Below, piece by piece: positions 30,811 to 32,232 of a stretch of DNA of 64,000 nt (its first letter is position 1; every line of letters starts with the position of its first letter). The notes under the pieces are model-generated. The model was not told where the DNA came from, made no database searches, and worked only from the letters and a program-made list of their open reading frames with translations. The position numbers and the translations under genes are program-made. The DNA is from Lyngbya sp. HA4199-MV5 (GTDB lineage Bacteria; Cyanobacteriota; Cyanobacteriia; Leptolyngbyales; Leptolyngbyaceae), in contig JAHHHL010000008.1 of NCBI GenBank assembly GCA_019359375.1, positions 62,001-126,000 on the forward strand, read 5' to 3'.

Positions 30811-31161
30811 CTGATCAACTGACAAAAGTCTTGAAAGGCTAGGGCGTGTCATCAATTAGCTCCAAAACCTTGCAATATCAGCAGTGTCACGCCCGTCCCA
30901 CCACACCAGGCTAGGGGCTGAAACCCTTGCTGCAAGAAATGTGTAGTATTAATTGATGACAGCCCCTAGTCGCTTCGTTGCTTACCCGCCCGTGATTAAA
31001 ATCCGGGCTAATGGTGCAAAACCCGTTCAAACGGGTTGTCAGGCGCTTTTAGTCCTCTACCTTTCGAGAAGGCAAGACCTAGAGAGGACTTCCTGCCATC
31101 AGCCCGCACTTTCGGTGCAGGGCGGGGTCAAGTACTCGCTAAAAGATTTGTCAATCAACCA
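30811..31161 (+). repeat. Multi-hairpin structured repeat, copy 1 (interrupted by MITE C)
   Basis: About 220 bases that match 31997-32219, split by the 131-bp MITE at 30839-30969. Hairpins in order on the plus strand are GCCCG...CGGGC, AACCCGTTCAAACGGGTT, AGTCCTCT...AGAGGACT with an inner CCTT/AAGG stem, and GCAC-TTTCG-GTGC. CCCGCCC near the left and GGGCGGG near the right could close the whole fold. Stems are kept between copies by G-U or compensatory changes. It may be a transposon-end RNA of the IscB/TnpB (HEARO or omega RNA) kind or another ncRNA; identity is not established. Confidence 0.6.
30839..30969. mobile_element. 131-bp MITE, copy C
   Basis: Ends match the other copies and are bounded by CTAG on both sides. 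It lies inside copy 1 of the structured repeat. Copy 2 of that repeat at 31997 lacks it and has a single TA at the matching place (32029-32030). Confidence 0.9.
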
Positions 31162-31185
31162 ACTGCATGAGTGTGGGCAATGATC

Positions 31186-31222
31186 GTTTAGTTCTCAGCA
31201 GTCAGCCTACTGAGAACTAAAC
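31186..31222. other. Perfect 13-bp-stem hairpin
   Basis: GTTTAGTTCTCAG and CTGAGAACTAAAC pair exactly around an 11-base loop. No T-run follows on either strand, so it is not a classic terminator. It lies 140 bases before the receiver gene. Confidence 0.5.
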
Positions 31223-31361
31223 GCTAGAAAATTAAGAAAAGCGGAAGAAGCTGCACTCAAACGTTGAAATACTTCTCTGGCTAGACCTCGCTGTATCAAA
31301 GCAGCGGTTAGATAGTAATGAATAAGTAAAAAATCTTTAAGCATTAAGGGCTGTTGCCACC

Positions 31362-31835
31362 ATGTCTACACCTAAATCAACTGAGTCATATCGGCTGCTT
31401 GCGGTTGACGACATCCCAGACAATTTGTTTCTCTTGCAAACCATCTTAGAAGCCGAGGGGTTTGCCGTGGATGTTGCCACCAGTGGAAGCGTTGCCTTAA
31501 GCAAAATCAAGGCATCCCCCCCAGATTTGATCTTGCTGGATGTCATGATGCCGGATATGACTGGATACGAAGTCACACAGCGCATTCGGCAAGATGAGAG
31601 TCTGCCAGCGATGCCGATCTTGCTGATTACGGCTCACGATAAAGCGAGCGCTCTGCAAGGGCTTGAATTAGGGGCAAATGATTTCATTAGCAAGCCGATC
31701 GACTTTAATGAATTGCTTACCCGCGTTCGTACCTATTTACAGTTAGAGCACAGCGCAGAAGCAGAACCTGGTGTGGAAGCAGGAAACTCGGTGAAAGCAA
31801 CGAGGCAAGCTTGGCGAACCACGCAGAATCGATGA
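31362..31835 (+). CDS. Stand-alone response-regulator receiver protein
   Basis: 157-residue CheY-like receiver with no output domain. All key residues are present: Asp16-Asp17, phosphoacceptor Asp60 in LILLDVMMPDMTG, Thr90 and Lys111 in FISKPID. The C-terminal 28 residues are low-complexity and probably disordered. Such single-domain regulators take part in phosphorelays or chemotaxis-like systems in cyanobacteria. No histidine kinase is adjacent, so the partner is unknown. MITE D starts 12 bases after the stop. Confidence 0.9.
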   Translation: MSTPKSTESYRLLAVDDIPDNLFLLQTILEAEGFAVDVATSGSVALSKIKASPPDLILLDVMMPDMTGYEVTQRIRQDESLPAMPILLITAHDKASALQGLELGANDFISKPIDFNELLTRVRTYLQLEHSAEAEPGVEAGNSVKATRQAWRTTQNR

Positions 31836-31846
31836 TCTGGTGCTTG

Positions 31847-31977
31847 CTAGGGCGCGTCATCAATTCAGCTCGAAACCTTGCAGTGTCAGCATTATCGCGC
31901 CCGTCCCAAAACACAAAGCTAGGGGCTGGAACCCTTGCTGCAAAGTATATATAGTCGTAATTGATGACAGCCTCTAA
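31847..31977. mobile_element. 131-bp MITE, copy D
   Basis: This copy is bounded by CTAG and CTAA and starts 12 bases after the receiver stop. It is somewhat more diverged than B, C and E. It sits 20 bases left of copy 2 of the structured repeat. Confidence 0.88.
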
Positions 31978-31996
31978 GATTCAGCGGTTTTTAAGG

Positions 31997-32219
31997 CTGA
32001 TTGGCTGACAAAAGGCTTGAAAGATTGGTAGCTTCGTTGCTCACCCGCCTGTGATTAAAATCCGGGCTAATGGTACGAAACCTGTTAAAACGGGTTGTCA
32101 GGCTCTCCTAGTCCTCTACCCTTCGGGAAGGCAAAGCCTAGAGAGGACTTCCTGCCATCAGCCCGCACTTGAGTGCAGGGCGGGTTCAAGTACTCGCTCA
32201 AAGATTTGTCAGTTAACCA
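31997..32219 (+). repeat. Multi-hairpin structured repeat, copy 2 (uninterrupted)
   Basis: Uninterrupted copy of the repeat at 30811-31161. Relative to copy 1 the first stem reads GCCTG...CGGGC (G-U pair), the second AACCTGTTAAAACGGGTT (G-U pair), the third has a CCTTC-GG-GAAGG tip, and the last GCACT-TG-AGTGC. Pairing is therefore conserved while sequence changed. It ends 13 bases before the stop codon of the ABC transporter on the opposite strand. Orientation is taken from the hairpin order and is not proven. Confidence 0.6.
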
Positions 32220-32232
32220 GGCTTCTGAGGGG

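Follow-up and report, generated by a model that had tools for sequence, protein, structure and literature searches.

Features of the locus

The window, i.e. the whole 64,000-nucleotide stretch of DNA that was analysed, lies on contig C85 of a 6.9-Mb cyanobacterial genome and contains a structured repeat that is present twice, as the initial annotation stated, with 90-91% identity in the shared stretch (Table 1). These repeats are MITEs of ~224 bp, a known kind of element, and are referred to here as type A. The limits set by the initial annotation, 30811 and 32219, mark where copy 1 begins on the left and copy 2 ends on the right, with a receiver-domain gene between them. The sequences flanking copy 1, CTCTATGGG and CTGCATGAG, are decayed and match at six of nine positions.

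Table 1. Coordinates of the type-A MITE copies, their substructures and adjacent features in the window
Feature	Position	Strand	Remarks
Type-A MITE, copy 1	30811-31162	+	~221 bp plus nested 131-bp element
Left terminal inverted repeat, copy 1	30811-30826	+	CTGATCAACTGACAAA
Second MITE (M2) inside copy 1	30839-30969	+	CTAG at both borders
Structured module, copy 1	30972-31138	+	Model R2, 121.1 bits
P1 closing arms, copy 1	30984-31126	+	ACCCGCCC (30984-30991) with GGGCGGG (31120-31126)
Hairpin P2, copy 1	30988-31008	+	GCCCGTGATTAAAATCCGGGC
Hairpin P3a, copy 1	31020-31037	+	AACCCGTTCAAACGGGTT
Hairpin P3b, copy 1	31051-31090	+	AGTCCTCT...AGAGAGGACT; 22-bp tip insert at ~31059-31080
Hairpin P4, copy 1	31102-31123	+	GCCCGCACTTTCGGTGCAGGGC
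Right terminal inverted repeat, copy 1	31147-31162	+	TTTGTCAATCAACCAA
Response-regulator receiver gene	31362-31835	+	157 aa; between the copies, outside the element
M2, second copy	31846-31976	+	Beside, not inside, MITE copy 2
Type-A MITE, copy 2	31997-32220	+	Uninterrupted, 224 bp; without intact target duplication
Structured module, copy 2	32031-32196	+	Model R2, 116.2 bits
22-bp insert	32118-32139	+	ACCCTTCGGGAAGGCAAAGCCT; tip of copy 2 hairpin P3b; resembles a cyanobacterial small dispersed repeat

Both copies contain the four hairpins and the CCCGCCC/GGGCGGG closing arms that had been described. The base differences quoted between them are also correct, but the changes from GCCCG to GCCTG and from AACCCGTT to AACCTGTT are one-sided C-to-T transitions that leave a G-U pair; since any C-to-T transition on that side has this outcome, two copies alone prove nothing. 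There is indeed no nuclease gene near the window copies, whose neighbours encode a phosphoesterase, a receiver-domain protein, and an ABC transporter (the last judged from its ORF translation).

Two further features were observed in this region. The receiver gene is bracketed by direct repeats of type A and M2, giving a composite-like arrangement, and downstream of copy 1, outside the MITE, a 17-bp inverted repeat with 94% complementarity and a 5-nt loop is present at 31185-31223 (CGTTTAGTTCTCAGCAG/CTACTGAGAACTAAACG).

Type-A MITEs in the genome

The genome-wide search for more copies that the initial annotation had proposed gave 44 matches, corresponding to ~40 copies. Alignment of 40 loci with their flanks showed that the element is sharply delimited, by CTGATTGACTGACAAA on its left side and by TTTGTCAGTCAACCAG on its right, and distinguished a long form of 224 bp from a short form of 202 bp. 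Insert-bearing copies apart, the length ranges from 199 to 226 bp, and no transposase gene is carried. These 16-bp terminal inverted repeats (TIRs) are found in nearly all full copies, and ~33 of the 37 distinct complete copies are flanked by 9-bp direct repeats (at least eight of nine bases), as scored with the boundary allowed to shift by one or two bases. In the control, eight of 2,862 mismatched flank pairs reached at least seven bases. Both window copies belong to the few without a 9-bp duplication. The type-A elements thus have TIRs and 9-bp target duplications instead of the palindromic IS200/IS605 ends that had initially been suggested.

The type-A end motif is also found in pairs around small elements of 139-184 bp that have a quite different interior (GTAGGTTGGGTT...). 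Such MITEs with type-A ends and an unrelated interior were observed at loci L042-L057 (GTAGGTTGGGTTAGCG...AACCCAAC). Their interior is itself a recurrent cyanobacterial repeat and is also present in L079, from another family.

A candidate insertion sequence for type-A mobility

Paired type-A ends flank, in a single case, a 1287-bp element (L041:994-2280) that encodes an intact 389-aa transposase. This protein matches both Pfam DDE_Tnp_1 (PF01609; E = 3.6e-8) and NCBIfam IS4_2 (E = 1.9e-39, with a score of 135.7 that is below the curated cut-off of 152), and inspection by eye suggests an IS4-type Y(2)R(3)E(6)K motif, YAERFQVEEALLDEK. A 9-bp target duplication fits the IS4 family. This IS4-type element is the likely mover of the type-A MITE, because its ends are shared with the MITE; the 16-bp ends are all that the two have in common, and the hairpin module is absent from the insertion sequence. 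The element is present as a single copy and itself has no matching target duplication. An intact relative with 89% identity was identified outside the family, in a genome that likewise contains a type-A MITE.

Structure and distribution of the hairpin module

The interior of the MITE consists of a palindromic module of ~150 bp, in which two nested arm pairs, P1 and P3, enclose the hairpins P2, P3a, P3b, and P4. The right half, once reverse-complemented, resembles the left half. The module is therefore a palindrome of palindromes and gives matches on both strands. In most copies, GTCCTCTAcc...ggTAGAGAGGAC forms a simple hairpin of 16 bp, and its long version has an additional 22-bp insert at the tip.

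Two covariance models were used to determine the range of the module. Model R1, built from 40 copies of this genome, its genus, and one other family (alignment A1), detected the module in 28 of the family's 42 genomes. For model R2, 43 diverse copies were aligned with MAFFT without regard to structure (A3). Across the class, this model detected the module in 88 of 242 genomes, representing 53 of 121 genera, with at most 12 candidates scored per genome; none of the small genomes listed in this class-wide search had the module. The complete genome G011 gave at least 150 matches counting both strands. An exact-motif scan of named genomes, with a motif too specific to show the range, returned five records only, all from Leptolyngbya-like cyanobacteria, and no match was obtained in the plasmid records searched.

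Scanning the window and 11 related loci against Rfam gave nothing at the gathering score, and at E values up to 10 only two chance-level matches to other families appeared, neither resembling HEARO. Together with the lack of an IscB or TnpB gene adjacent to the window copies, this result argues against the omega/HEARO assignment suggested at the outset. The structure is nevertheless conserved far beyond chance, linked to transposons, and without a match to any Rfam family, as that annotation had anticipated.

The same module under unrelated transposon ends

The module is not restricted to type-A elements. Flanking 3-bp repeats accompany 13 of 19 elements with type-B ends (GAGGATGTTTGAAAAG), and flanking 4-bp repeats accompany 15 of 21 elements with type-D ends (CTSAGATCTTGCACC). 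Each of the 17 full-length type-D loci and 10 type-B loci tested with R2 contained the module, and three shorter type-D elements either lacked it or retained a 53-base remnant. Among the other end types, E, K, and H were seen more than once at both ends and C, G, I, and J once; types B, D, and E occur together in one genome, G009. When modules were compared across types, the best pairs reached 75-83% identity, compared with 52% (maximum, 55%) for shuffled sequences.

The ends of types A, B, and D are unlike in sequence and are cut with different staggers (9, 3, and 4 bp, respectively), indicating that they depend on different transposase families. The occurrence of homologous modules under unrelated ends with unlike duplication lengths indicates that MITEs of different transposase families have the module in common. 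It is present in at least three unrelated transposon types (A, B, and D) and probably in several more, and this recurrence suggests reuse and conservation of the cassette itself. We infer that modules move between end types. The idea that ends A, B, and D represent one diverged end type was rejected on account of the differing duplication lengths. Autonomous partners were sought by end pairs for type B in genome G033, where the only pairs were ~110 or 200-215 bp apart, and for type D in G009, where none was found.

No recognised end pair was found at 41 of 87 sampled loci (a few of them duplicates), including the four loci of family f23 that were read. Such loci may reflect decay, unlisted end types, or free modules, and because they make up about half of the sample, carriage by MITEs may not be universal. 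At the f23 loci (L166, L169, L173, and L178), no TIRs are visible and the modules end in hairpins (AGCCCTGCACTCAAGTGCGGGCT), with a partial tandem repetition of the module at L166.

Covariation and sequence variation in the hairpins

In alignment A3, the nested six-helix structure shows changes on both sides in 27 of 47 pairs. Double-change cells number 252, compared with 100 ± 12 in shuffles (0 of 500), and the covariation score is 0.328, compared with 0.166 ± 0.007 in shuffles (0 of 500) and at most 0.096 in slid versions. It should be noted that the cells do not represent independent events and that the structure was drawn in knowledge of these sequences. In the four hairpins alone, 93.9% of the cells are paired. 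Among aligned copies from this genome and a few close relatives, changes on both sides occur in 2 of 39 pairs only, and many changes break pairs. Of these alignments, only the cross-genus one shows strong covariation.

The variation among 33 copies of this genome was divided into private changes and inherited (shared) variants. Private changes number 20 in 61 stem columns and 22 in 84 other columns, whereas three inherited variants fall in stems and 30 elsewhere (Fisher's test, P = 0.0003; P = 0.003 for the stem-versus-rest contrast with automatically chosen stems). Departures from the commonest pair in the stems comprise 8 GT, 1 WC, 9 AC, and 7 other combinations, pairing being lost about as readily as it is kept. 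With automatic folds under a span limit, G011 shows the same direction with small numbers (two singletons and no shared variants in 64 stem columns), whereas G009, an uninformative mix of subfamilies, does not, and the pooled stem-versus-rest test is not significant (P = 0.25). Since private changes hit stems freely and inherited variants avoid them, multiplication in this genome appears to be limited to copies whose hairpins are intact. Most simply, this can be read as free decay of inserted copies, with new lineages founded only by those that keep their hairpins. Arm-copying via template switching is an alternative explanation of this stem pattern.

Strand tests

An RNA made from one strand tolerates G-U pairs but not A-C pairs. 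In the module, the ratio of G-T to A-C is 60:48 for the nested structure and 31:24 for the hairpins, whereas RNase P RNA from the same family, used as a control with a poor alignment of 28 pairs, gave 95:26. Both strands of the module fold far better than dinucleotide shuffles, with mean z-scores of -8.6 and -8.4 (30 modules from 27 genomes). Of 72 modules, 69 are intergenic; where the two neighbouring genes are co-directional, the module has their orientation in 24 cases and the opposite one in 19, and 17 convergent gaps contain a module, compared with 7 divergent gaps.

The nearly equal occurrence of G-U and A-C, the equal folding of the two strands, the apparently random orientation, and the lack of an Rfam match make a one-strand ncRNA unlikely. 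The initial annotation had read the conserved pairing as selection on structure, with an ncRNA among the candidates; for an ncRNA, this lack of strand preference is unfavourable, as are the stem-breaking substitutions in the copies of this genome and the clear match to a non-RNA element, the MITE. A DNA structure, or RNA of both strands, remains; the near-equal ratio of G-U to A-C would also fit RNA made from both strands. Strong covariation alone is accordingly no proof of RNA, and without strand tests this family of modules would pass for a new ncRNA.

Nature of the module

The module is probably a DNA-level hairpin cassette carried in MITEs of several transposon families, of which type A is probably moved in trans by an IS4-type transposase. 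A DDE transposase of this type would recognise CTGATTGACTGACAAA and TTTGTCAGTCAACCAG and move the type-A MITE in trans, and the module would act as DNA in either orientation. Its hairpins could help the element multiply, e.g. by hairpin exposure or cruciform extrusion at the replication fork, and its palindromes might let the module swap between MITE ends by template switching. From the contrast between private and inherited variants, we infer that the hairpins matter for multiplication. MITEs are normally seen as deletion relics with filler interiors, whereas here the interior is conserved and the ends vary across much of a bacterial class. The family therefore offers a testable case of selection on a MITE interior and of the exchange of interiors between transposon families.

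A possible, if unlikely, alternative is that the palindromes are passive, i.e. functionless hairpins that are kept by quasipalindrome correction through template switching, in MITE interiors that spread by copying alone. Several observations are in line with this idea. Covarying pairs occur nearly without intermediates (columns 53-69, for example, hold G-C in 23 sequences, A-U in 20, and no other combination), and the stem-hitting changes listed above for the copies of this genome do not preserve pairing. At L036 (G000:C88:70550-71400), the P3b hairpin of a type-A element has grown into a near-perfect extended palindrome in which each arm copies the other, apparently through template switching, and a paired double change is present in L197 within an otherwise near-identical subfamily. 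Passive maintenance nevertheless leaves unexplained both the class-wide retention of the four-hairpin layout with its conserved arm motifs and the tendency of inherited variants in this genome to avoid stems and to fall in loops and the linker.

It is also conceivable, although we advance this view with considerable reserve, that the module is a semi-independent parasitic cassette that has repeatedly gained unrelated transposon ends across Cyanobacteria and whose DNA hairpins are required in cis for its multiplication, whichever transposase moves it. If so, it would be a mobility helper common to different transposase families, a parasite of parasites.

Action of the hairpins in RNA of either strand, where folded readthrough transcripts would lead to 3'-end protection, RNase processing, or attenuation, seems improbable. 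To our knowledge, Cyanobacteria lack Rho, and a hairpin family as abundant as this one (with roughly 75 or more copies in a single complete genome) occurs in such Rho-less organisms. The almost exclusively intergenic location, the excess of convergent over divergent gaps, and the strong folding of both strands would suit such a role, and transcripts of stem-loop MITEs are known to modulate mRNA (PMC10969869, PMC3733652). On the other hand, reading by eye revealed no T-runs after the hairpins, as intrinsic termination needs, and this genome shows no visible selection against private mutations that break stems. In the 3'-end map of Synechococcus elongatus, moreover, stabilising structures are largely absent at ends without U-tracts (PMC13289151).

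A true ncRNA family carried by MITEs, such as an omega/HEARO-like guide or another trans-acting RNA, is very improbable: the strong cross-genus covariation over six helices and the absence of the family from Rfam would be expected of a new RNA, but the Rfam results for the window and 11 related loci, the missing wobble asymmetry, the equal folding of the strands, the random orientation, the dozens of decaying copies per genome, and the lack of a nuclease gene beside the window copies all oppose it. A REP/REPIN-type element, with a Y1 (RAYT) transposase acting on the hairpins, seems extremely improbable. The paired inverted hairpins, intergenic location, high copy number, and f23 copies that appear to end in hairpins without TIRs are in its favour, whereas types A, B, and D have DDE-style TIRs and target duplications of 9, 3, and 4 bp, respectively. 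REP superfamilies are defined by a GTAG/CGTC end tag (PMC3733652), and none was seen by eye at the hairpins.

Relation to known elements and associated repeats

Bacterial MITEs that are moved by related insertion sequences, including Nezha in cyanobacteria, the MITEs of Anabaena sp. 90, Correia/NEMIS, and QMITE, are likewise short and non-coding and have TIRs, target duplications, intergenic locations, and strong stem-loop folding. The group-1 MITEs of Anabaena 90 have been drawn with three sets of inverted repeats (PMC3542288). What sets the present elements apart from known bacterial MITEs is that one folded interior is combined with several unrelated end types in much of a class. No paper found in the literature search describes one folded interior under several unrelated end types or prints the hairpin strings, and as far as these searches go, a structured conserved interior common to different transposon families has not been described. 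The module shares with REP/REPIN elements the inverted pairs of short hairpins, high copy number, and intergenic location, but differs from them in its length (~150 bp), its four hairpins in nested arms, its DDE-type ends, and the lack of a visible GTAG/CGTC tag. HEARO/omega RNAs and IS200/IS605 ends are similarly multi-hairpin and linked to mobile DNA; the module differs in having no model match, no nuclease, and no strand preference, and in having TIRs and a target duplication. Repetitive regions of Planktothrix (PMC4766695), GTAG repeats (PMC3733652), and the G/C-rich triplex motifs abundant in Microcystis (PMC4666352), all set beside the module by description only, may overlap with parts of it.

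The M2 element, a MITE of 131 bp, has the ends CTAGGGCGYGTCATCAATT and is bordered by CTAG on either side, a target that may point to an IS701-like mover. In this genome, at least 40 copies were listed and 347 candidates appeared at first look. Nesting occurs both ways: M2 lies inside type-A copy 1, and type-A copies lie inside M2 at L005 and L012.

The 22-bp insert ACCCTTCGGGAAGGCAAAGCCT is dispersed, hairpin-like, and found alone elsewhere, and in these respects, by description only, it is similar to the small dispersed repeats (SDRs) of cyanobacteria, reportedly described by Elhai et al. in 2008. It is a passenger at the tips of MITE hairpins and not the module itself. In the long form it occupies the tip of P3b, in L035 and L133 it is found reversed at the tip of P3a, and L108 has a different short repeat at the tip of P2; short repeats thus seem to insert at hairpin tips. 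The same insert stands alone, near position 1501, in tRNA-array spacers of other genera at L080, L081, and L082, with 17, 9, and 7 tRNA genes within 3 kb, respectively.
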